From a virus, in the IMG/VR virus record IMGVR_UViG_3300030385_002649, positions 1-64,000 of that record: a stretch of DNA of 64,000 nt; one strand, given 5' to 3'. The notes under the pieces were generated by a model. That model did not search any database, was not told where the DNA came from, and was given only the letters and a program-made list of their open reading frames with translations. Both the position numbers and the translations under genes were made by a program. Each line of letters begins with the position of its first letter. Positions within the stretch are counted from its first letter, which is position 1. Positions 73 to 12,918 of this stretch are shown piece by piece.

Positions 73-505
73 AGCTGTTGTACCCACCGATCCTCTTGAG
101 CGCACCTGGGCCTGCCCGTACGATGGGACCACATTAAAGTTCAATCCTGCTGTACGATTCATCCAAGTCGTCGTTTCACGAAACGACCTCAAAATCGTCA
201 AAGAACGAGGGATGGTTGGGCGCAGATGGAACAATCTGCGGGATCGGGTTGATAGTTCGGTGGTTGCGATCATCAGAGGGATTAGGTTAAGCGGTTCAGA
301 CGAGGACTACAATCACGAACTTCCGAGCAATGTAGCTTATTCTTTGATCAGGCCAAGGCCCATGACCGAGGATGGCAACACGGCCTTTGATTTCAGAGTC
401 CAACGGCTTGAATTCGGCAAAAGCGAAATGCCTACCTCTTTCGCTATGGATGCGGCTAAGGCAATGGCTCATATTCATGATCGAATTAGGGAGGAATGCA
501 GGTGA
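2..505 (+). CDS. Hypothetical protein with ADETAE repeats, 5' end outside the window
   Basis: The frame is open from base 2 to the TGA at 503-505, so the gene begins left of the window. The visible part has a low-complexity acidic N-terminal repeat (ADETAE, four copies) and then a folded-looking domain of about 140 residues starting near the sequence ERTWACPYDGTTLKF. An internal ATG at 212 is not needed as a start because the frame is open far upstream. The acidic repeat is probably a flexible linker or tail. I do not recognise the domain. Confidence 0.8.
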   Translation, partial: ADETAEADETAEADETAEADETAEAVVPTDPLERTWACPYDGTTLKFNPAVRFIQVVVSRNDLKIVKERGMVGRRWNNLRDRVDSSVVAIIRGIRLSGSDEDYNHELPSNVAYSLIRPRPMTEDGNTAFDFRVQRLEFGKSEMPTSFAMDAAKAMAHIHDRIREECR

Positions 506-828
506 TCGAGCCTAAGGAAGGAAACTGCTATAGGGTTAAGATTGCGTACAATCTAAAGGAAGGCAGCACAAACTGTCCTCCCCTTCACAACTATGAAGGC
601 CCTGCTTATTGTCAGAATGTAGCCGTTGGAGGGTTCATCTGTTTGCTGTTCCTCATCATGCATGAGGCCAGCCAAGTGGTTCGCGCGCATATCCTCACTC
701 AAGAAGGCAGCGTCATTATCGAAGACCTCGGCCCTGGCGTTCCATTTCTATTAAACACTCAACAAGGAGTTGATGCGGAAGCCTTCGGCGGTTATCAGCA
801 TCAACCAGCCTACACAGGCAAGGAATAA
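502..828 (+). CDS. Hypothetical protein, 108 aa
   Basis: I place the start at GTG 502, which overlaps the upstream stop as GTGA and sits 6 bases after the Shine-Dalgarno sequence gggagga (489-495). The in-frame ATG at 496 is too close to that site. The protein has a small beta-rich look and a mildly hydrophobic middle (GGFICLLFLIMH) that could be a buried strand or a weak membrane segment. It carries the first copy of the AGCCAAGTGG motif, read as Ser-Gln-Val-Val. No family recognised. Confidence 0.7.
   Translation: MIEPKEGNCYRVKIAYNLKEGSTNCPPLHNYEGPAYCQNVAVGGFICLLFLIMHEASQVVRAHILTQEGSVIIEDLGPGVPFLLNTQQGVDAEAFGGYQHQPAYTGKE
670..679 (+). other. Polar motif AGCCAAGTGG, copy 1
   Basis: Exact copy, in frame as Ser-Gln-Val-Val inside the gene 502-828. 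Confidence 0.8.
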
Positions 829-829
829 C

Positions 830-1162
830 ATGAAGAAATCAGTCAAGCTTGAGGACATGATCGGCAAGGACCTGAAAATCCTAGTCCAAGCCAGGACCTG
901 GAACATGAAGGAGAAGAAAAACGACTTCTCGAGAAAGATCTTTGTCGGAACGCTCACAACAATTCGTCAAAGTTCGCTCGTCATCGAACCCTGGTTCGAA
1001 GTCTTGGAAGTGAAGGATGGCCGTATCGTCTCTCATAAGGACACCGACTCGAAGTGTGGTAAGTACATCATGCACAGTGGGACGACTAAGGAGATGCTCC
1101 AAGTCGATGAGCTCGACTACTCCGGAGGCCCTTGGGTCGACGGCAAGCCCAAGCGATCATAA
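830..1162 (+). CDS. Hypothetical protein, 110 aa
   Basis: Starts at ATG 830 after the ribosome site caagga, two bases beyond the previous stop; an ORF start at 770 lies inside the previous gene and is unlikely. The product is basic at the N-terminus (MKKSVKLEDMIGKDLKILV) with alternating strands, compatible with a small SH3-like or OB-like barrel. A terminator-like hairpin follows it directly, so it probably ends the first transcription unit. Function unknown. Confidence 0.75.
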   Translation: MKKSVKLEDMIGKDLKILVQARTWNMKEKKNDFSRKIFVGTLTTIRQSSLVIEPWFEVLEVKDGRIVSHKDTDSKCGKYIMHSGTTKEMLQVDELDYSGGPWVDGKPKRS

Positions 1163-1169
1163 GGTTAGA

Positions 1170-1195
1170 AGCCGGGGTGGGAAACTACCCCGGCT
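1170..1195 (+). terminator. Stem-loop, probable terminator
   Basis: A 9-bp perfect stem agccggggt / accccggct with an 8-base loop lies 8 bases after the stop at 1162. The T-tract is poor (taccttatc), so termination may be partial. Confidence 0.6.
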
Positions 1196-1204
1196 TACCT
1201 TATC

Positions 1205-1447
1205 ATGAGATACTTACCATGGAGCATCTGCGAAAACGACCCATCGTTGGTCATAGACGCAGGAGGTTGTGTCGCTATCGACCTCTCAGTCTGGGGCGCG
1301 CTTGGAAAAGGGCACGACGCTAAAGAAGTGGTTGCGTTCATCGTAGAACGAGCCAATCGAGAACATGTCACAGACGAAGAACAACGTCTAAAGGACGAGT
1401 TTCAAAAGGAGGAGGTTGATGAAGATCTTCCAACAGAGATTTTGTGA
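1205..1447 (+). CDS. Hypothetical protein, 80 aa
   Basis: ATG 1205 lies just after the hairpin and has no obvious ribosome site, so the start is uncertain. The product has a beta-like first half (CVAIDLSVWGALGKG) and a charged helical C-terminus. It overlaps the next gene by 29 bases, and its 3' end carries that gene's ribosome site. No family recognised. Confidence 0.6.
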   Translation: MRYLPWSICENDPSLVIDAGGCVAIDLSVWGALGKGHDAKEVVAFIVERANREHVTDEEQRLKDEFQKEEVDEDLPTEIL

Positions 1448-1715
1448 GTTGAAAGCGCTAGACGCGCCAGACTGGGTGAAAAGAGGAGCTTACCTTAATC
1501 TTCTCCATCACCTTCCAATTGGCGAAGACTGGCTAGAGTGCAAAGACCGTTTTGGGCTTTGGATTCTGCTTGAAACCGTTGGAGTCTCCTTGAGCGAGGA
1601 AGAAGTTGAAATCTTCGTCCGAGAACTGAGTGTCGGCGTCGAACACATCGACCAAATCCTGAGGACAAGAGGCCACGCTAAACTGTGGCAAGAAACGGAC
1701 AAGTCATGGGAGTAG
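1419..1715 (+). CDS. Hypothetical protein, 98 aa
   Basis: Starts at ATG 1419, five bases after the strong site aaaggaggagg. A TTG three bases upstream is a poorer choice. The product is largely helical with many acidic residues (SLSEEEVEIFVRELSVGVEHI). No motif recognised. About 125 bases without a convincing gene follow it. Confidence 0.7.
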   Translation: MKIFQQRFCELKALDAPDWVKRGAYLNLLHHLPIGEDWLECKDRFGLWILLETVGVSLSEEEVEIFVRELSVGVEHIDQILRTRGHAKLWQETDKSWE

Positions 1716-1842
1716 AGACTAGACCCAAGATGATCATTCTTGGTGACTTCCGATATGTGTGATGCTGCGATCCTAGTGGTGTCTCATTATTTTGCAAGTG
1801 GGACTCACGGAAGCTACGGCGCTACAACTTACTGGAGATAAG

Positions 1843-2757
1843 ATGAGAAACTTCGTCAGAAAAAACACAATCTTCCTAACCCTAGCAGGCTCAAGGATGT
1901 ACGGCACCAGCACGCCAGAATCGGACACTGACATCCGAGGTGTCTGCGTTCCACCAAAAAACGTCGTGCTAGGCTTCGCCAACAAGTTCGAACAACAAAT
2001 GATTCCTGACGAGGAAGACTCAATCATCTACGGGCTAAAGAAGTTCATGGCCTTGGCCGCTGAGTGTAACCCTAACATATTGGAATTGTTGTTCGCACCT
2101 GAGTCAGCGATCATAACTTCAACACCAACATGGGAAGCTCTGATCGAACACCGTGAAATGTTTATCACCGCTGCGGCTTACCCCAAGTTCAGCGGTTACG
2201 CGCTTAGTCAGCTAAAGAGAATTAGGTCTCATAGGGCCTGGTTGCTTAGTCCTCCCGCCAAGAAACCAACTCGTGAAGAGTACGGGCTGACAGACCAGCC
2301 AAGTAGCGGGCTGACCTTGGGGACGGACATGCTGGAACCAGAGACTCTCAAGAGGATCAAATCTGAGCGTCAGTTCAAAACCGCTTTGCGAGCTTGGAAT
2401 CAGTATCAAGGTTGGAAAAAGGACCGCAACCCTAAACGGGCCGTCCTTGAGGCTAGCTTCGGCTATGACACCAAGCATGCCATGCACCTTGTCCGTCTCC
2501 TAAGAATGGGCGAGGAGATTCTCACTCAGGGCAAGGTGATCGTCGAGCGACCCGATGCTGAAGAACTGCTCGACATCCGTCGTGGGAAATGGACCTATGA
2601 CCAACTAATGGAAAACGTTGAGCCGATGAAGAATCGGTTGGATAAAATTTTCGAAACCAAGTCTTACTCAATTCCTGATAGGGCTGACATCAACGCACTC
2701 TCTGACCTGTGTGCGGAACTTCACGAGAGGTTCTGGCACGAAAAGGAAACAAAATGA
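1843..2757 (+). CDS. Predicted nucleotidyltransferase, YcgL/T4 NrdC.11-like
   Basis: The N-terminus carries the polymerase-beta-superfamily signature Gly-Ser-Arg-Met-Tyr-Gly-Thr followed by Ser-Asp-Thr-Asp-Ile-Arg-Gly, the GS...DxD metal and nucleotide binding motif. This is the arrangement of the YcgL/COG3541 family, which includes T4 NrdC.11 and RlaP-type proteins linked to RNA repair. The family reaction is thought to be nucleotide transfer to an RNA or protein end, but the substrate is unknown. ATG 1843 follows ctggagata; a TTG at 1792 would add 17 unrelated residues before the conserved strand. The next gene overlaps by ATGA. An RNA ligase at 25.9 kb and a HAD protein at 6.5 kb fit an RNA-repair theme, which is inference. 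Confidence 0.8.
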   Translation: MRNFVRKNTIFLTLAGSRMYGTSTPESDTDIRGVCVPPKNVVLGFANKFEQQMIPDEEDSIIYGLKKFMALAAECNPNILELLFAPESAIITSTPTWEALIEHREMFITAAAYPKFSGYALSQLKRIRSHRAWLLSPPAKKPTREEYGLTDQPSSGLTLGTDMLEPETLKRIKSERQFKTALRAWNQYQGWKKDRNPKRAVLEASFGYDTKHAMHLVRLLRMGEEILTQGKVIVERPDAEELLDIRRGKWTYDQLMENVEPMKNRLDKIFETKSYSIPDRADINALSDLCAELHERFWHEKETK

Positions 2758-3071
2758 AGTTCCAACTCCTCATCCTAGCTCTGTTGTTCTCAATAGGCTG
2801 CAGTTCTCCCACTAAGGCGTACGAGATCGTTCTAGATAGCGAACAGCTGAAAGAACTTCAAGATTGGAATTATCTCACGGTGGTGCCGACGGATGTCACA
2901 GTTCCTTGGTTCAAGATTGTCTCAGAAGACGGACCTAAGGTGACTGTCAAATTGGCTCGGCCTTTTCAACTCTTCTATCACCCCATTCTGCGGCGAACGG
3001 GATCGGCCCCAGTGTCTTCGAAGGATCAAGGCGAGAAACCCCGCACTTGGCAATCGCTTCAAGGAAAGTAA
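2754..3071 (+). CDS. Small lipoprotein, 105 aa
   Basis: ATG 2754 overlaps the upstream stop (ATGA) with aaaagga in front. The N-terminus is a typical type II signal peptide: MKFQLLILALLFSIGC, hydrophobic core followed by a lipobox ending in Ser-Ile-Gly-Cys. After processing the protein would be lipid-anchored at Cys16 in the cell envelope. The mature part is about 90 residues with no recognised domain. Phage lipoproteins of this kind can act in superinfection exclusion, but nothing here proves that. Confidence 0.75.
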   Translation: MKFQLLILALLFSIGCSSPTKAYEIVLDSEQLKELQDWNYLTVVPTDVTVPWFKIVSEDGPKVTVKLARPFQLFYHPILRRTGSAPVSSKDQGEKPRTWQSLQGK

Positions 3072-5578: not shown

Positions 5579-5651
5579 GGGCTTGTAGCTCAGGGGTTAG
5601 AGCGCGACTCTTATAAGGTTGATGTCGATGGTTCGATTCCATCCTGGCCCA
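5579..5651 (+). tRNA. tRNA-Ile (anticodon UAU)
   Basis: A full 73-nt cloverleaf can be drawn: acceptor gggcttg/ctggccc, D-stem gctc/gagc, anticodon stem cgact/ggttg with loop cttataa, T-arm gatgg-ttcgatt-ccatc. The anticodon TAT reads AUA directly. Bacteria normally read AUA with a CAU anticodon modified by TilS, so this phage tRNA avoids that modification. Confidence 0.9.
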
Positions 5652-5654
5652 CTT

Positions 5655-5737
5655 GATCGAATGGCGGAATTTGGCAGACGCGCATGTTTCAAACACATGT
5701 TCCATTAGGAGTGAGGGTTCGAGTCCCTCTTCGATCA
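5655..5737 (+). tRNA. tRNA-Leu (anticodon CAA)
   Basis: Class II tRNA of 83 nt with acceptor gatcgaa/ttcgatc, an anticodon loop ttcaaac (anticodon CAA, reads UUG), a long variable arm and T-arm gaggg-ttcgagt-ccctc. It is 3 bases from the tRNA-Ile. Confidence 0.9.
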
Positions 5738-5752
5738 TGAAAATAATTTTCG

Positions 5753-5834
5753 GGACCTGTGGTGGAATTGGCATACACACAACACTTAAAATGTTGCGCC
5801 GCAAGGCTTGCGGGTTCGAGTCCCGCCAGGTTCA
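5753..5834 (+). tRNA. tRNA-Leu (anticodon UAA)
   Basis: Class II tRNA of 82 nt: acceptor ggacctg/caggttc, anticodon stem caaca/tgttg with loop cttaaaa (anticodon TAA, reads UUA and UUG), variable arm, T-arm gcggg-ttcgagt-cccgc. Third member of the cluster. Confidence 0.9.
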
Positions 5835-7020: not shown

Positions 7021-7305
7021 ATGTCGATCCTCAACTCGTTCAACAGCAACAACAACAGCAACGTCGGCAGCCTCTCCTTCACCATTCAGTATGGTACGGA
7101 GAAGGTTCACGTCGACGTCCGTCCCGAAGATCCCACCAGTCCTCAGAGCCTCGACGCGGCTTTGAAGGTCTACGCTGGGGCGCTGGGTTACGACTTCTCG
7201 CGGCCCGTGACTTGGCGTCGCGGTAGTGAGAACGTCGAGGCTACGACTCGCCCGCAGGCGGGTGAGACGTACCAAGCTGCGATGTCGCACGAGCAGAAGG
7301 GCTAA
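7021..7305 (+). CDS. Ubiquitin-like protein A (PRTRC-C-like)
   Basis: A 94-aa protein with a Ser/Asn linker (first 15 residues) and then a pattern of two strands (SFTIQYG, EKVHVDV), one helix (SLDAALKVYAGALGY) and further strands, ending in Glu-Gln-Lys-Gly. A beta-grasp modifier exposes exactly such a C-terminal Gly; PRTRC protein C, as I recall it, ends in Thr-Lys-Gly and has a similar DPxxSP...Y spacing. A near-copy lies at 8480, and JAB and E1-like genes follow within 5 kb. The stop directly after Gly means no processing protease is needed. ATG 7021 follows ctggag. It has its own strong terminator, suggesting separate high expression. The fold is inferred from pattern and context, not from a search. 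Confidence 0.6.
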   Translation: MSILNSFNSNNNSNVGSLSFTIQYGTEKVHVDVRPEDPTSPQSLDAALKVYAGALGYDFSRPVTWRRGSENVEATTRPQAGETYQAAMSHEQKG

Positions 7306-7315
7306 GTTTGCCCAA

Positions 7316-7345
7316 GGCGGAGGCACCCTTCGGGGTGCCTCCGCC
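7316..7345 (+). terminator. Strong stem-loop terminator
   Basis: A 13-bp perfect stem ggcggaggcaccc / gggtgcctccgcc with a stable ttcg loop, 11 bases after the stop of the first ubiquitin-like gene. The T-tract is weak. Confidence 0.8.
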
Positions 7346-7422
7346 ACCTCTCTAGCATCGAGTACAAGATGAACACGACGTTTTATGGAAACAATTTTGA
7401 GTACCCCCACAGAGGAAGAACG

Positions 7423-8364
7423 ATGAAATCTGAAGTGAAGACGATGACGAAGACGGTGGCGGGTGAGAGTGATCCGCGCAAGAAACTGCTCGAACGCGCT
7501 ATTAGCCAAGTGGCGGATCAGAAGGCTTTGTTGGAAGCGGATCCTGTTGCGGTTCGTCAAATTCAGGCTGCACAATTGGCGCAGCAAGCTGCCAAGAGTC
7601 GCTTTGATGCTGACGCTCTTTTGGTTAGGGCTGAGAAGGCAGCGGAGGAAGCTGAGCGTTTTCGCCTTGAGCAGATCGAAACCAAGATCGCAGCCGAAAT
7701 TGAGCATCGAGAGAAGCTCATAGAAACCGAGCAACGGTTGGCCGATGAAATGCGCCAAGAGAAGCTCAATGAGGAGAGGCGCACCCTTGAGAATAAGTAC
7801 AAGGAGGGCGAGTTTAGGGAGGCTGCTCTAACCTCTGAACGCCGCGCCGATGAGTTTGCTGAGTGCAAGGCGCGCGAGTTGGGGCTGGACGGGAAAGACG
7901 GAGACGCCGAAAATACCGAAAATACCGAAAGCGGTCCGCTCAGCAGTGAGGAGATTGGCGCTCTCCAATTGATCGCGTTAAGCCCTGAAGGCGCTTGCGA
8001 GCAGTACGCCAGGGTCAAGCTGAACACTATGATCAGCGTTATGGCTAAGATCAACCGTCAATTGGCACGTGCTGTCGCTGATAAGACGAAGATCGCCATC
8101 GATAAGACGCTGGTCGAGCCGGACGAGGAGGCTGATACTCTTTGTCTGATGAACGACACGGTCCGAGACGAGATCTTGGATAGTTATCGTTCGAAGGGTT
8201 GGAATGTAGAAATTATGACTGGTCACCTGGATCATACAATCTACGTATTTGAGCCTTCGGAAATGGGGAAGGCTGATAAGGACGTCGTGAAGGCAGCAGC
8301 TTTGCCACTTGGCGACGTTTTTGATCAGCCAGAGGACGATGAAGTCCTCGAATTCGGAATCTAA
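7423..8364 (+). CDS. Coiled-coil protein between the ubiquitin-like genes
   Basis: Starts at ATG 7423 after agaggaag; an upstream ATG at 7369 lacks such a site. Residues about 15-150 are a long charged helix rich in Glu, Ala, Arg and Lys (for example AEKAAEEAERFRLEQIETKI), strongly coiled-coil. The C-terminal third is folded and ends in an acidic tail (QPEDDEVLEFGI). Position between two ubiquitin-like genes suggests a partner, scaffold or target of the modifier. It contains a copy of AGCCAAGTGG. No enzymatic motif seen. Confidence 0.75.
   Translation: MKSEVKTMTKTVAGESDPRKKLLERAISQVADQKALLEADPVAVRQIQAAQLAQQAAKSRFDADALLVRAEKAAEEAERFRLEQIETKIAAEIEHREKLIETEQRLADEMRQEKLNEERRTLENKYKEGEFREAALTSERRADEFAECKARELGLDGKDGDAENTENTESGPLSSEEIGALQLIALSPEGACEQYARVKLNTMISVMAKINRQLARAVADKTKIAIDKTLVEPDEEADTLCLMNDTVRDEILDSYRSKGWNVEIMTGHLDHTIYVFEPSEMGKADKDVVKAAALPLGDVFDQPEDDEVLEFGI
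7504..7513 (+). other. Polar motif AGCCAAGTGG, copy 3
   Basis: Exact copy, in frame as Ser-Gln-Val-Ala inside the coiled-coil gene 7423-8364. Confidence 0.8.
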
Positions 8365-8365
8365 A

Positions 8366-8393
8366 ACACAACACACAACACACAACACACAAC
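8366..8393 (+). repeat. 7-bp tandem repeat (acacaac) x4
   Basis: Four exact copies of acacaac directly after the stop of the coiled-coil gene and before a hairpin. Two other A/C-rich 7-bp arrays occur at 16314 and 62241. Confidence 0.95.
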
Positions 8394-8401
8394 AACTCAT
8401 T

Positions 8402-8430
8402 GTCCTCCCCCGCATGGTGTGAGGGAGGAC
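8402..8430 (+). terminator. Stem-loop, probable terminator
   Basis: An 8-bp stem gtcctccc / gggaggac closes a 13-base loop, between the coiled-coil gene and the second ubiquitin-like gene. No T-tract follows. Confidence 0.55.
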
Positions 8431-8479
8431 ATGGTTCGAACCGCACTTTTAAGTGCACATTTTTTGGAGAAAATTTCTT

Positions 8480-8779
8480 ATGTCGATTCTTAACAGCTTC
8501 TCAAGCAACAACGCCAACAACGCCAACAACGCCAGCATTGGCTCTTTCACCTTCACCATTCAGTATGGTACGGAGAAGGTTCACGTCGACGTCCGTCCGG
8601 ACGATCCCACCAGCCCCGAGTCGCTCGATGCAGCGCTGAAGGTCTACGCTGGTGCCCTCGGTTACGACTTCTCGCGGCCTGTGACCTGGCGTCGCGGTAG
8701 TGAGAACGTCGAGGCTACGACTCGCCCGCAGGCGGGTGAGACGTACCAAGCTGCGATGTCGCACGAGCAGAAGGGCTAA
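8480..8779 (+). CDS. Ubiquitin-like protein B, paralogue of A
   Basis: A 99-aa near-copy of the protein at 7021. The linker differs (repeated Asn-Asn-Ala instead of Asn runs) but the beta-grasp-like domain is almost identical, and the last 100 or so bases of the two genes match exactly, including the C-terminal Glu-Gln-Lys-Gly. Start ATG 8480 follows tttggag. Two near-identical modifiers suggest recent duplication or gene conversion, or two conjugation variants that differ only in the flexible N-terminus. A strong terminator follows, so like copy A it is isolated as its own transcript. Confidence 0.6.
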   Translation: MSILNSFSSNNANNANNASIGSFTFTIQYGTEKVHVDVRPDDPTSPESLDAALKVYAGALGYDFSRPVTWRRGSENVEATTRPQAGETYQAAMSHEQKG

Positions 8780-8801
8780 ACAACCCTTCTAGTTCAAGAG
8801 C

Positions 8802-8841
8802 GGGGGACGACGGGGTTAATTCCTCGTCGTCCCCCTTCTTT
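8802..8841 (+). terminator. Rho-independent terminator
   Basis: An 11-bp perfect stem gggggacgacg / cgtcgtccccc followed by ttctttt. It has the best T-tract of the terminators in this block. Confidence 0.85.
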
Positions 8842-8873
8842 TAATGTTATCAAGTCACAAGATCGAGGTTGCC

Positions 8874-8902
8874 TTGAAGTTGATCGTGACATCATTTATA
8901 GC
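8874..8902 (+). promoter_or_regulatory. Candidate sigma70-like promoter
   Basis: TTGAAG (8874-8879), a 17-base spacer and TATAGC (8897-8902) lie between the terminator and the E2-like gene at 8987. Four of six bases match in each box. The position, directly after a terminator, supports it. Confidence 0.35.
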
Positions 8903-8986
8903 ATTTAATACCTAGATGGGCGATAATTCAACCTCGTCGCCCTTTAAGGCGCTGACGCATTCAAATTCAACAGTCAGGAGACTACA

Positions 8987-10501
8987 ATGTCTATCTTCTC
9001 GTCTGGTCTAAGTAAAGACAAGCACAACGAGATCTTCAAGAGGGTAGTGGGTACAATCATCCCGATTCCAAGTGAATCAGGCGGCGTGATTGTCATGTGG
9101 GAGAAGGCGCGGCTCAAGATCAGCTGTATCCTTCCCCCAACCACACGAGTCTGTAAAGCCAAATGGACCAAGGTTTCAAACCGTTTCGACCAAAAGGACT
9201 TCGAGATTGACACACCCACGCTAATCATGTCAGGCACCTGTGGGTCTGACTTTGGCGGAGAAACCCCGCCGATTCCAATAGGAGAAAGCAACCGTGCTAT
9301 CGAATTCCGACGCGGGTCACACATCCGAGATAAGGTGTCGCTAGCAGCGCTTAACGTCAACGCCAAAGACCGTATCATGGTCAAGCCGTACCGACTGGCT
9401 AACGTCTACGACAACAGCAACATCTGCTGGGGAGGAAACAGCATCCCCAAAACTCTGCGAGAGGCAAACAATCTCTTCTGGAGCGCGCCGTTCAACTGCG
9501 ACTTTGGCGGGCCATTGCACGACAAGATGTGCAAAAACATCGAGCATATGAAAGATGCCGACATAGGCAACGGTTGTGGAACTGCAAGATTCGTCCACCG
9601 TCAAGCATTGCACTCGGTTTGCCAATGCAGCGAGGGCCGCGCAATACCCCCCCGCGAAGGAAGTTCTTTGTGTAGTTATTGCGGTATGATCTGGCCCGAC
9701 AAGGTTAGCCCAGAAATCGCAGAACGATCCAAAATTGTGGGTGGTCTTAACCTCTGCACTATTGGCTTATGCGACTCAATGGAATGCAGATGTCTGTGTC
9801 AGTGCTGTAGCAACAACTGTCGGTGTGTGTGCACGTGCGACCTCACTGACGCCTTCATCAAAGGTCTCAAGGATTACGCAACGTCTGATGAGAACGGCTC
9901 GCACTGGCAAGACTATTACCCTCTCGGCAGCCTGTCGTGGGAAGACTGGACTCGGCCTATCTGTGGGACACGCTACAATCGTGAAAACCCGCAGTTCATG
10001 TCGTACACCGGAAAGTGTGACGGAGTCTTCATCTCCTATGATAAGAAGTTCGTCTCTAGTCATCCTGAGGATGTCCAACGCAACCACGCTGGGCACAAGT
10101 GTATCATCGGTCTCTATACGATGACTCCGACCGGATACGAGATTGATCTTGGTAAGACTAAGATCAATCTCCCCAGCAAGAAGGTCCTCCAAGTCTACGA
10201 CATGTGGGAGACCCAAGATCAGCGCGTCGAGCGTGAGAACGAAGAATACCGTGTTCGTCAAGAACAAGAACGTGTCCGAGCGGCCCAACTTCGTGAAGAA
10301 CGACTCGCGCTCGTGCAATTGCGACGAATCCGAGACGATAAGGCACGAGCGATTGTCGCCAAGAGTGTTGCTGATACGGAACTCGCCGAGGACAAGGATG
10401 CACTTAGCATCTATACGAATTATTTCCTAAGGTTGGAAAACGCGGCAGTCATCGACGCGATGATCACTGCCGACGAACGACCCATCACTTATCAATACTA
10501 A
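8987..10501 (+). CDS. E2-like candidate with Cys-rich cluster (PRTRC-B-like)
   Basis: A 504-aa protein. Residues about 132-170 (RLANVYDNSNICWGGNSIPK, then a Phe/Trp-rich stretch) resemble my memory of PRTRC protein B, in which an NV..G..C.GN block carries a conserved Cys; here Cys147. PRTRC-B has been discussed as E2-like. Residues about 212-284 hold some fifteen cysteines in pairs (CQC, CSYC, CRCLCQCC, CVCTC), enough for two or more zinc sites and possibly RING- or treble-clef-like. Residues about 405-470 are a coiled coil rich in Arg and Glu. The gene is followed 9 bases later by the JAB gene and then the E1-like gene. The E2 role and the identity of the Cys cluster are inference. Confidence 0.5.
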   Translation: MSIFSSGLSKDKHNEIFKRVVGTIIPIPSESGGVIVMWEKARLKISCILPPTTRVCKAKWTKVSNRFDQKDFEIDTPTLIMSGTCGSDFGGETPPIPIGESNRAIEFRRGSHIRDKVSLAALNVNAKDRIMVKPYRLANVYDNSNICWGGNSIPKTLREANNLFWSAPFNCDFGGPLHDKMCKNIEHMKDADIGNGCGTARFVHRQALHSVCQCSEGRAIPPREGSSLCSYCGMIWPDKVSPEIAERSKIVGGLNLCTIGLCDSMECRCLCQCCSNNCRCVCTCDLTDAFIKGLKDYATSDENGSHWQDYYPLGSLSWEDWTRPICGTRYNRENPQFMSYTGKCDGVFISYDKKFVSSHPEDVQRNHAGHKCIIGLYTMTPTGYEIDLGKTKINLPSKKVLQVYDMWETQDQRVERENEEYRVRQEQERVRAAQLREERLALVQLRRIRDDKARAIVAKSVADTELAEDKDALSIYTNYFLRLENAAVIDAMITADERPITYQY

Positions 10502-10510
10502 GGATAACCA

Positions 10511-11962
10511 ATGTATTATGGTGACGAAGATTCTTATTTCGCAGAGTATTTTGATCATGGGCATGGCGCCCCTAAAAGTGGGAGCACTAACGTGAGCAAC
10601 ACAGAACCTGACAAGTCGAAAGCCGTCTGGCTAAACCGAGGCAACCGGAAGAAGGAACTCCCTCTTCCGTCTGAGATGGCAAACTTCGTCCGAGCCGAGG
10701 ACGGATGTTATGAAGTCATCAGTTCATCGGCGTGGGGTTCGGTAATTATCTCAGTCCGTGACCCTGATGCTAACACCAAGCTCACCCATCACGACAGGAA
10801 GGGAATCAAGCTGATTGACGACTTCCCAGTCCTCCCTAAGGAGCTGTGGGGTCCGATCATCGGATTGTACTTCCACTATTGCAAGCCGCCCAAGAATCAG
10901 TGGGCGAAGAGCGACGATAACGAGGTCAGTGTCGTCCTCCTGCGTCGGATGGATGACCTTTCCAAGTGGAAGGTTGTCGTGCCTAAGCAAATCGTTGATG
11001 GCGCGTCAGTTCGTGCCGACTTCGAGGAGTGCTGCGACATTGTGACCGGTGAGAAGTATGACAGCTTCCCCCCGATTGACAAGGACGATGACGGCAACGA
11101 TGTCTTTTGGGTCCACGCTGGTTCGTCTCACAGTCACAACACAATGGGAGCCTTCTTCTCCTCAACGGACGATGAATCTGAGCTTGGGGTGCCTGGCATG
11201 CACATCGTGGTTGGAAAGATTGACAACAAGAAGGGTGAGTATTGCCCTAAGGCGAGCATCGTTCTCCGAGGCGAGCGTAAGGAGATCGATATTGACGACG
11301 TTGTTGATACGACCCCTTTCAGTGCTGAATTCCACAAGAACTGTCTGGAGTTGGTGACTGAGAAATCGTACTCTTACAACACCACGCCGTACAGTTCTAA
11401 TCGGTATGGCAGTTACAATGGAGGGTACAATGGAGGGTACAACACGACGCCGATTTCTCGGCCTCTGTTCTTGACCGGTGGTCCGATTGATCAGGTTTGG
11501 GTGCCTGATGCTGAGTGGGACAACAAGAACAATTGTTGGACCTATGAGGGTCTTTTGGAGGGCTTTGACGTGGTTACCACGGTCGGCGAGACTGAGTATA
11601 TTGGTCGCGTCACCAAACATGATCTGCTCGGCCTCGGCATCAAGACTGGTACACATAACGGAGTCGAGCACTTTGTTGGATGGGCTAAGCTCAAGACTAC
11701 GGAAGTCCAGGAGTACGACTACGTTGAGTCAGCCTTAGAGGATACTGACGCCATGCTTCCCGTTCTTGATGAGGACGAAAATGAGTTTGGTATCTGGGGT
11801 TATCCTTCCTTACAATTGGCGGATGAGGAGGAAACTGCCAATCTAACAAGACAAAATCTTGATAAGAAGCACGAGGAAAGAGCGCTCACGCGACGTGAAG
11901 CTCTCGCGCAGCTTATCGGCAACCGCCGCCCTAACCCGAACATGCAACCTCCAATCGTTTAG
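10511..11962 (+). CDS. JAB/MPN+ (JAMM) metalloprotease-domain protein (PRTRC-A-like)
   Basis: A 483-aa protein with an exact JAMM signature: His207-Ser-His209, seven residues, Ser217, two residues, Asp220 (in SHSHNTMGAFFSSTDDESEL). This motif binds the catalytic zinc in deubiquitinases such as Rpn11 and in prokaryotic JAB proteins, which cut ubiquitin-like tails. The region around it (residues about 130-270) would be the MPN fold. A Tyr/Asn/Gly-rich linker sits near 295-310, and a second folded domain and an acidic/basic tail follow. In PRTRC systems a JAB protein sits beside ThiF and the ubiquitin-like protein, as here. It may remove the phage modifier or a host one. Confidence 0.8.
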   Translation: MYYGDEDSYFAEYFDHGHGAPKSGSTNVSNTEPDKSKAVWLNRGNRKKELPLPSEMANFVRAEDGCYEVISSSAWGSVIISVRDPDANTKLTHHDRKGIKLIDDFPVLPKELWGPIIGLYFHYCKPPKNQWAKSDDNEVSVVLLRRMDDLSKWKVVVPKQIVDGASVRADFEECCDIVTGEKYDSFPPIDKDDDGNDVFWVHAGSSHSHNTMGAFFSSTDDESELGVPGMHIVVGKIDNKKGEYCPKASIVLRGERKEIDIDDVVDTTPFSAEFHKNCLELVTEKSYSYNTTPYSSNRYGSYNGGYNGGYNTTPISRPLFLTGGPIDQVWVPDAEWDNKNNCWTYEGLLEGFDVVTTVGETEYIGRVTKHDLLGLGIKTGTHNGVEHFVGWAKLKTTEVQEYDYVESALEDTDAMLPVLDEDENEFGIWGYPSLQLADEEETANLTRQNLDKKHEERALTRREALAQLIGNRRPNPNMQPPIV

Positions 11963-11971
11963 GAGAATACT

Positions 11972-12718
11972 ATGAAAATCGACCACGCAATCATTATCGG
12001 AGCCGGTGGTACTGGCTCACACCTCATCGAACCCCTCGTCCGACTGCTGCATTATCATGAGGATGGCACCAAGTCAATCACTGTTATCGATGGTGACCAG
12101 TACGAGGACTCCAACTCGACCCGCCAACTGTTCAGCAAAGAACTGATGGGGGTCAACAAGGCCGAGGCCCAGGGTCGCAAGATTGACTTCGCTGAGCTTC
12201 GGATCGTCCCAGAGTACGTCAACGACCTCAAGATGCGACGCGTCATGAACGAGATCGGAGCCGCTGAAGACGACATGATCCTTCTGATCCTTGCGGTGGA
12301 CAACCATGCCACCCGCAGCGCGGTCATGAAGATGTTGACGAGCGATGAATACCAGAACTTCGCTGTCCTATCACCGGGCAACGATTTCAGCCACGGCCAA
12401 GTGGTGTGTTGGGCTCGCATCAATGGGGAGGACAAGACTCAGCACCCGTTCGAGAGATACCCGCTCCTTGAATTCCCCGAGGACAACATTCCTGGGTTGG
12501 GTTGCGCGGAGGAAGCTGTTAGCACTCCTCAGTTGATCATGGCCAACGCTCTGGCAGCGGTCTCGACCAATCTCTACGTGTCTAACATCTTGGATAACAA
12601 GCCGATCCCTGATGAGATCCACTTCAACGTGTATAGCCTCAAGATTGTCCCGTCCGAGGGCACTGAGGTCATTCTCGCCTTAGAAACTGGCGAAACCTCC
12701 GAAGTCCTAGCTGGATGA
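11972..12718 (+). CDS. ThiF/E1-like adenylyltransferase (PRTRC ThiF-like)
   Basis: Rossmann motif GAGGTGSH at residues 10-17, an acidic strand end at Asp40, then NSTRQLF with Arg51 and NKAEA with Lys63: the ATP-binding set of ThiF/MoeB/E1 enzymes, which adenylate the C-terminal Gly of a beta-grasp protein. Cys178 (in PGLGCAEEA) is placed like the conserved Cys of PRTRC ThiF proteins and may form the thioester. At 248 aa it is a minimal E1 without the zinc CxxC of MoeB. It is 9 bases after the JAB gene and overlaps the next gene by ATGA, so the three genes are probably co-transcribed. It carries a GGCCAAGTGG variant motif. Confidence 0.88.
   Translation: MKIDHAIIIGAGGTGSHLIEPLVRLLHYHEDGTKSITVIDGDQYEDSNSTRQLFSKELMGVNKAEAQGRKIDFAELRIVPEYVNDLKMRRVMNEIGAAEDDMILLILAVDNHATRSAVMKMLTSDEYQNFAVLSPGNDFSHGQVVCWARINGEDKTQHPFERYPLLEFPEDNIPGLGCAEEAVSTPQLIMANALAAVSTNLYVSNILDNKPIPDEIHFNVYSLKIVPSEGTEVILALETGETSEVLAG
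12395..12404 (+). other. Polar motif variant GGCCAAGTGG
   Basis: One base from the consensus, read as Gly-Gln-Val-Val inside the ThiF-like gene. Confidence 0.65.
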
Positions 12719-12918
12719 CTGAGGCTCAGTTTGCCTGCCAGGTGGCTGAAATCCTGGCGGGCATGGGGAGGGACGATCTGGACGACAACGGAGTCGTCCT
12801 TCCTTTTCGGGGCCTTTCTCGTCCTGCTGTCCAAATTGTGGACAATTTAGTTACGGTTGTCGTTCAAGATAACGGCGGACAACCACAAACCTTTCAACTC
12901 CACGCTAAAAAGCTCTAG
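12715..12918 (+). CDS. Small protein coupled to the E1-like gene, 67 aa
   Basis: ATG 12715 overlaps the stop of the ThiF-like gene (ATGA). The first 30 residues are helical and acidic, the rest are strands ending QTFQLHAKKL. The tight coupling marks it as a likely part of the ubiquitin-like module. No family recognised. Confidence 0.65.
   Translation: MTEAQFACQVAEILAGMGRDDLDDNGVVLPFRGLSRPAVQIVDNLVTVVVQDNGGQPQTFQLHAKKL

Follow-up and report, generated by a model that had tools for sequence, protein, structure and literature searches.

We analyzed a 64,000-nucleotide stretch of viral DNA (the window), which is the first 64 kilobases (kb) of the 370,804-base IMG/VR virus record IMGVR_UViG_3300030385_002649. 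An earlier note, made without database searches, had proposed that a phage-encoded ubiquitin-like conjugation module lies near the start of this record and that it resembles the PRTRC cassettes of bacteria. We find a module at 7021-12718, with all of its parts on the + strand: two ubiquitin-like modifiers (UBL1 and UBL2), an E2-like conjugating enzyme, a JAB protease, and an E1-like activating enzyme. We think it quite likely that the phage makes these proteins for use during infection, as a reversible system of ubiquitin-like conjugation that is complete in itself. The features are as follows, with the evidence for each in parentheses.

7021-7305, +: UBL1, ubiquitin-like modifier, 94 amino acids, C-terminus EQKG (near-identity to UBL2, alignment of the UBL family, and the model of its paralogue UBL2)
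7369-8364, +: coiled-coil protein of 331 amino acids between the UBL genes (no convincing family match; homologues absent from related loci)
8480-8779, +: UBL2, ubiquitin-like modifier, 99 amino acids, C-terminus EQKG (alignment, AlphaFold2, and Foldseek)
8802-8835, +: putative strong hairpin of 14 pairs, like an intrinsic terminator, after UBL2 (pattern scan and sequence)
8987-10501, +: E2-like conjugating enzyme, 504 amino acids (Prok-E2_D match, hhalign to PRTRC_B, and invariant residues)
10511-11962, +: JAB/JAMM metalloprotease, 483 amino acids (Prok-JAB, PRTRC_A, and invariant JAMM residues)
11972-12718, +: E1/ThiF-like activating enzyme, 248 amino acids (PRTRC_ThiF, ThiF, invariant catalytic residues, and PDB matches)
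12715-12918, +: open reading frame of 67 amino acids that overlaps the E1 stop codon (no family match)

Modifiers and enzymes

The two modifiers do end in Lys-Gly, as the earlier note stated. Their genes are 87% identical as DNA, the last 31 codons are the same, and the codon differences comprise 13 synonymous and 4 non-synonymous changes. Because the differences are mainly synonymous, UBL1 and UBL2 seem to be recent duplicates under selection, and gene conversion is perhaps homogenising them. Neither protein had a match in the family libraries that we searched, and a sequence search of the PDB with the UBL profile gave no significant match. A scan of viral contigs did identify relatives. In an alignment of 13 members, the Lys-Gly at the C-terminus is the sole invariant pair, and 33 of 37 distinct relatives terminate in KG plus 0-2 further residues (about 15 of these 33 have one or two residues after the KG). 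The other C-termini among the 37 are KA or KA plus one residue (n = 3), KQA (n = 1), and a longer tail (n = 1). A fold other than beta-grasp would have counted against these proteins being modifiers, and the AlphaFold2 model of UBL2 is a beta-grasp (strand-strand-helix-strand-strand-strand), with a mean predicted local distance difference test score (pLDDT) of 72 and with 61 of the 99 residues at 70-90. When we compared this model to the PDB with Foldseek, the best matches were SUMO, SUMO-like, or ubiquitin folds (probability 1.00), with template modelling scores by target that were mostly 0.57-0.67 for single-domain matches. The list includes an archaeal ubiquitin-Rpn11 complex and a bacterial complex of a ubiquitin-like protein with its deubiquitinase (8tyx).

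The candidate E2 of the earlier note turns out to be the 504-amino-acid protein and not the 331-amino-acid one. It matches Pfam's Prok-E2_D at E = 2.3e-4, which is under the curated cut-off, and this family is matched by 12 of the 24 aligned members of the E2 family (best 1.1e-26). Profile-profile comparison of the E2 family with PRTRC_B/E2-D by hhalign gave a probability of 98.3% (E = 2.4e-14) with the full alignments and 99.3% (E = 2.3e-20) with the cores only. On this homology, we identify it as the module's E2. All 24 aligned sequences have Asn139, Cys147, Trp148, and Asn170, even though the mean column identity is only 16%. (In some more distant relatives, Trp148 is replaced by another residue.) The spacing of 8 from Asn139 to Cys147 is that of the HPN...C motif in classical E2s, and the residues that precede Asn139 are not His-Pro. 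When aligned by hhalign to three eukaryotic E2s, the motifs were in register, weakly (pair P = 0.001, probability 19%). A sequence search of the PDB with the E2 profile found no significant match. The core spans about residues 100-195, followed by a Cys-rich part (about 210-290) and a C-terminal coiled coil (about 410-495). Outside the core, the protein is not conserved among relatives or is modelled without confidence, and it is speculation that the Cys-rich and helical parts act in substrate choice.

The JAB protein has the exact HxHx7SxxD motif that had been reported for it (H207-S-H209-x7-S217-xx-D220) and also a metal-side Glu138. All 9 aligned sequences have Glu138, His207, Ser208, His209, Ser217, and Asp220. 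The protein matches Prok-JAB (4.1e-4) and PRTRC_A (1.4e-4) and has a long N-terminal region; its profile had no significant match in a sequence search of the PDB. The E1 likewise bears out the earlier note, which credited it with all ATP-binding motifs: it has GAGGTGS, D40/D42, N48-xx-RQ, K63, and D110, as well as a candidate catalytic Cys178. The 8 sequences that we aligned from its clade all have Gly10/12/13/15, Asp40, Asp42, Asn48, Arg51, Gln52, Lys63, Asp110, and Cys178, and Cys178 is also kept in the plasmid PRTRC enzymes. The E1 matches PRTRC_ThiF (4.2e-18) and ThiF (7.1e-12), and its profile matches E1s of known structure in the PDB, including those for SUMO and ubiquitin. That the catalytic residues are invariant in divergent families of E2, E1, and JAB proteins argues for active enzymes.

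A ThiF-like enzyme might instead be part of a sulfur-carrier system of the ThiS/MoaD-ThiF type, which would serve cofactor or tRNA modification and would not conjugate proteins. The E1 does belong to the ThiF superfamily, and Pfam's ThiS is matched by 2 of the 13 UBLs (best 1.1e-4). However, the UBLs end in KG, not GG; the E1 lacks a rhodanese domain and has PRTRC_ThiF, rather than ThiF or MoeB, as its top-ranked family; and the set includes an E2-like protein with an invariant Cys. We consider a sulfur carrier very unlikely.

The hairpin at 8802-8835 sets the modifier genes apart from the enzyme genes. There are plausible ribosome-binding sites 5' of the UBL2, E2, JAB, and E1 genes, and the G+C fraction at third codon positions is 0.77 and 0.74 for the UBL genes and 0.53-0.70 for the rest. 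These third-position values and the ribosome-binding sites would fit a modifier that is expressed more strongly than the enzymes.

Two other proteins are probably not part of the core. The 331-amino-acid protein has no convincing family match and no homologue among the 167 related viral loci that we describe below, so it is probably an accessory. We also considered it as an E2 or as a PRTRC E or F protein and rejected this, as neither the family searches nor the related loci gave any similarity. The 67-amino-acid reading frame at 12715-12918 is likewise probably outside the core: family searches gave no match for it, and none of the related loci has a homologue.

The phage and its relatives

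As the earlier note had proposed, the module sits in a phage genome. Profile searches with the record's proteins found the T4 major capsid protein gp23, the tail sheath, and rIIA/rIIB, along with phage DNA polymerase and helicase families. Judged by these genes, the record is a T4-like jumbo phage of about 371 kb. The gp23 gene is at 157.3-158.6 kb of the record, or about 145 kb from the module.

Several other genes of this phage caught our attention. Three tRNA genes (Ile-TAT, Leu-CAA, and Leu-TAA) lie upstream of the module at 5579-5834 of the window. Genes for isocitrate lyase and malate synthase adjoin on the - strand (G000 C1:84245-86574; L014, about 239-3033), so this phage genome holds the complete pair of the glyoxylate shunt. 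The catalytic domain of a PARP-type ADP-ribosyltransferase (E = 8e-28) is encoded on the + strand at G000 C1:68932-69453 (L013). G000 also encodes a PurZ-like adenylosuccinate synthetase of the phage family, an IMP dehydrogenase, a GMP synthase, a Mom family protein, and intein splicing domains. This set hints at purine or DNA modification.

To find relatives of the module, we scanned IMG/VR with alignments, which yielded 167 viral loci, some of them on shared contigs. When viral contigs were scanned with the E1 and UBL as single sequences, nothing was found, so alignment-based scans were required, and an alignment that included plasmid E1s was too diverse to serve as a query. All four components are present in more than 20 of the 167 loci. 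Because the same four families co-occur in many viral loci, with 33/37 of the UBLs ending in KG plus 0-2 residues, we think that the module goes beyond chance. The orders include E2-JAB-E1 (42 loci of the first set) and UBL-JAB-E2-E1 (18 loci). The window's order of UBL-E2-JAB-E1 also occurs in L033, L123, and L140. In L079 and L122 the order is UBL-E2-JAB-E2-E1, with an E2 on both sides of the JAB, which by arrangement is a natural bridge between UBL-E2-JAB-E1 and UBL-JAB-E2-E1.

In a tree of E1 proteins, the window groups with L076, L079, L081, L122, L123, and L140 (support 0.86). This group is nested in a 26-member clade (0.97) and then in a 70-member clade (0.995). Viral contigs account for all of the first 60 members listed of the 70-member clade, and none of these is a plasmid PRTRC enzyme. 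Several of the IMG/VR contigs may be plasmids; gp23 was shown in three records, which are the window's and two further carriers of the module (258 and 284 kb), and a terminase scored over its cut-off in 13 of 32 tested records. None of the bacterial genome contigs matched GS[SI]HSHN[TS]M, the motif of the clade's JAB proteins, which as a single short pattern is weak evidence. Judging from the viral loci, the module is no isolated capture but is widespread among large phages. No neighbouring genes are common across the lineages that carry it. In a distant phage lineage, a gene like that of RNA polymerase beta' lies downstream of JAB-E1 (L176:11788-14493 and 15 other loci; sequence only).

Some viral loci encode poly-UBL precursors upstream of E2-JAB-E1 (L037:2289-3368, L094:4937-6043, and L048:2618-3370), with 4-6 repeats that each have a TKG end. 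Together with the UBLs that have one or two residues past the KG, these internal KGs imply processing by the JAB.

Two cultured phages also have complete sets of UBL, E2, JAB, and E1, as in the window. First, Salmonella phage Arash has consecutive genes for E2 (gp248), JAB (gp247), and E1 (gp246). Its UBL is unannotated and ends in ...RTGTKG (OQ632216.1, complement 180513-180713; L003:107-307). Its frame differs from that of the annotated gp251, and L114 is among the relatives that conserve the UBL's sequence. Second, Bacillus phage KLEB27-3 has a UBL with four repeats (gp199), unlike the window's two single-unit UBLs, and then further genes that include E2 (gp196), JAB (gp195), and E1 (gp194). 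This poly-UBL exceeds the cut-off for PRTRC_C, and the existing annotation of KLEB27-3 already names single genes as ThiF and PRTRC_A. The window's E1 is only 25-29% identical to those of Arash and KLEB27-3. Mass spectrometry of the Arash virion includes gp246, gp247, and gp248 (PMC10585845, Table 2), as well as gp251 (PMC10585845). Because E1, JAB, and E2 are in this published proteome, a PRTRC-like module is expressed in Arash. With two cultured carriers, the role of PRTRC-like systems is directly testable.

The virion data raise the possibility that UBL and JAB form a maturation switch in virion assembly and that E1 and E2 serve only that. In phage lambda, the JAB of gpK cuts the ubiquitin-like domain of gpI during tail assembly (meeting report, PMC12908700), and in Arash the E1/JAB/E2 genes adjoin a tail spike gene. 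Lambda, like the window, thus has a phage-encoded ubiquitin-like protein and a JAB, but it has no E1 or E2 for them. Also, lambda's ubiquitin-like domain forms part of a tail assembly protein and its JAB is fused to NlpC/P60, whereas the window's UBLs are free-standing and its JAB protein has no second peptidase family in Pfam and NCBIfam searches. Given these differences, and with gp23 so far from the module, we view an assembly switch as unlikely.

Comparison with known systems

The resemblance to PRTRC that the earlier note proposed is supported, with some refinements. The module shares with PRTRC a homologous E1, E2 (Prok-E2_D/PRTRC_B), and JAB (PRTRC_A), a ubiquitin-like protein that ends in KG, and the order Ubl-E2-JAB-E1. 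On the other hand, all scores against the PRTRC models (NCBIfam TIGR03734-03742) are under the cut-offs: the E1 has PRTRC_ThiF as its best NCBIfam match, at 65.6 bits (cut-off 144.75), the JAB scores 21.4 bits against PRTRC_A (cut-off 101.8), and the E2 scores 12.5 bits against PRTRC_B (cut-off 131.45). The window's UBLs have no NCBIfam match, PRTRC_C included; their fold and their KG end do agree with that family. Across the whole record there is no match to PRTRC_parB or ParB_N, with positive controls detected. There is no match to PRTRC E or F among the module's proteins and none to PRTRC_F in the record, though that search's control also went undetected. Compared to plasmid PRTRC, the modifier is duplicated, the E2 is enlarged by Cys-rich and coiled-coil parts, and the genome is a phage's. 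Because ParB is absent and the scores are under the cut-offs, we describe the module as PRTRC-like in its predicted working and not as PRTRC proper.

Scores so far below the cut-offs might also be expected if these genes were remnants of a plasmid cassette that had been captured and had then decayed or lost its function. But the frames are intact, the catalytic residues are invariant, the UBL copies differ mostly at synonymous sites, and the E1 belongs to a viral clade of its own, so we find decay extremely unlikely.

Of the systems already known, the nearest is operon type 6d, which Iyer, Burroughs and Aravind described in 2006. The genes and species of type 6d (for example Polaromonas naphthalenivorans) correspond to NCBIfam's PRTRC cassette, and its row in their table has bacteria only and no phages (PMC1779556). 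Type 6d and the window share a free ubiquitin-like protein with a C-terminal Gly, adjacent JAB and E1-like genes, and an E2-like protein with a conserved Cys and without the classical His. Type 6d also features a helical protein with conserved charged residues and a JAB-N domain with conserved Arg and Trp (PMC1779556). One difference is that the type 6d E2 family has an "absolutely conserved" His downstream of the Cys (PMC1779556), while the window's family has its invariant Asn170 (PFN) at that site or next to it, and no conserved His follows.

Bil and CBASS Cap2/Cap3 also contain E1, E2, and JAB parts of ubiquitin-like conjugation, but they are host defence systems. Bil tags phage tails. Neither system fits the window's module. 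The E1 matches BilD at 0.0087 only, and the other proteins of the module have no Bil match. CBASS has a fused E2-E1 and a cyclase, whereas in the window the E1 and the E2 have a gene each; the match to CBASS is weak and confined to the E1 domain, and there is no cyclase match among the module's proteins. Nevertheless, the module could be a weapon or a shield, with the same chemistry in another role: it would tag host defence proteins or the virion parts of competing phages. Related bacterial cassettes act against phages, namely CBASS Cap2 (PMC10097602) and Bil (cited in PMC13373217), and the module is portable, with neighbours that vary between phage lineages. Against this, there is no immunity or toxin gene linked to the module, its architecture does not match Bil or CBASS, and a long-lived viral lineage in very different large phages is more like a core function. 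We regard a role in conflict as possible, if tentative.

A literature search gave no account of a complete E1-E2-Ubl-JAB set in phages, but it left subscription papers mostly uncovered, so a prior mention is possible.

Proposed mechanism and role

If the locus is a reversible conjugation system, then the E1 would bind ATP, adenylate the C-terminal Gly of UBL1 or UBL2, and then carry the UBL as a thioester on Cys178. The UBL would pass to Cys147 of the E2, aided by Asn139 as the counterpart of the Asn in the HPN motif of classical E2s. The E2 would then join it to target proteins at their amino groups; instead of a separate E3, the E2's own Cys-rich and coiled-coil parts may guide this. The JAB would remove the UBL and, in relatives with tailed UBLs or poly-UBL precursors, would trim these to ...KG. 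This predicted chemistry is well supported by homology and by the conservation of residues.

Several observations weigh against this proposal. A few relatives of the UBLs terminate in KA or KQA instead of KG, and the UBLs align only weakly to PRTRC_C by hhalign. The model of the full-length E2 is poor overall (pLDDT 52), and a fold search with it was uninformative, which is why we replaced it with the profile-profile comparison. In some viral loci, only JAB and E1 were detected, and other readings of E1 plus JAB exist there. Also, the list of Arash virion proteins has 116 entries, many of which are enzymes, so the presence of E1, E2, and JAB might be due to carry-over.

As to what the conjugation system does, most likely it modifies phage or host proteins to the phage's benefit. 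The association with the Arash virion hints at phage targets, while kinship with defence systems hints, by analogy, at a role in conflict. Large phages might run a ubiquitin-like pathway of their own, with all of its parts, at the core of their development. The UBL would be put on their own replication or virion proteins, some of the enzymes may travel in the particle, and this would be a virus-borne cascade of the ubiquitin type that serves viral growth and not defence; we find this conceivable but somewhat doubtful. Large phages that are unrelated to each other keep the module, as do plasmids, with differing genes around it, which suggests that it serves large extrachromosomal genomes in general.

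What is known of ubiquitin-like conjugation in bacteria comes mainly from two sources, the PRTRC cassettes of plasmids, whose function is unknown, and host defence systems. Complete and apparently intact versions that form an old and widespread lineage in jumbo phages suggest that phages themselves use protein tagging.

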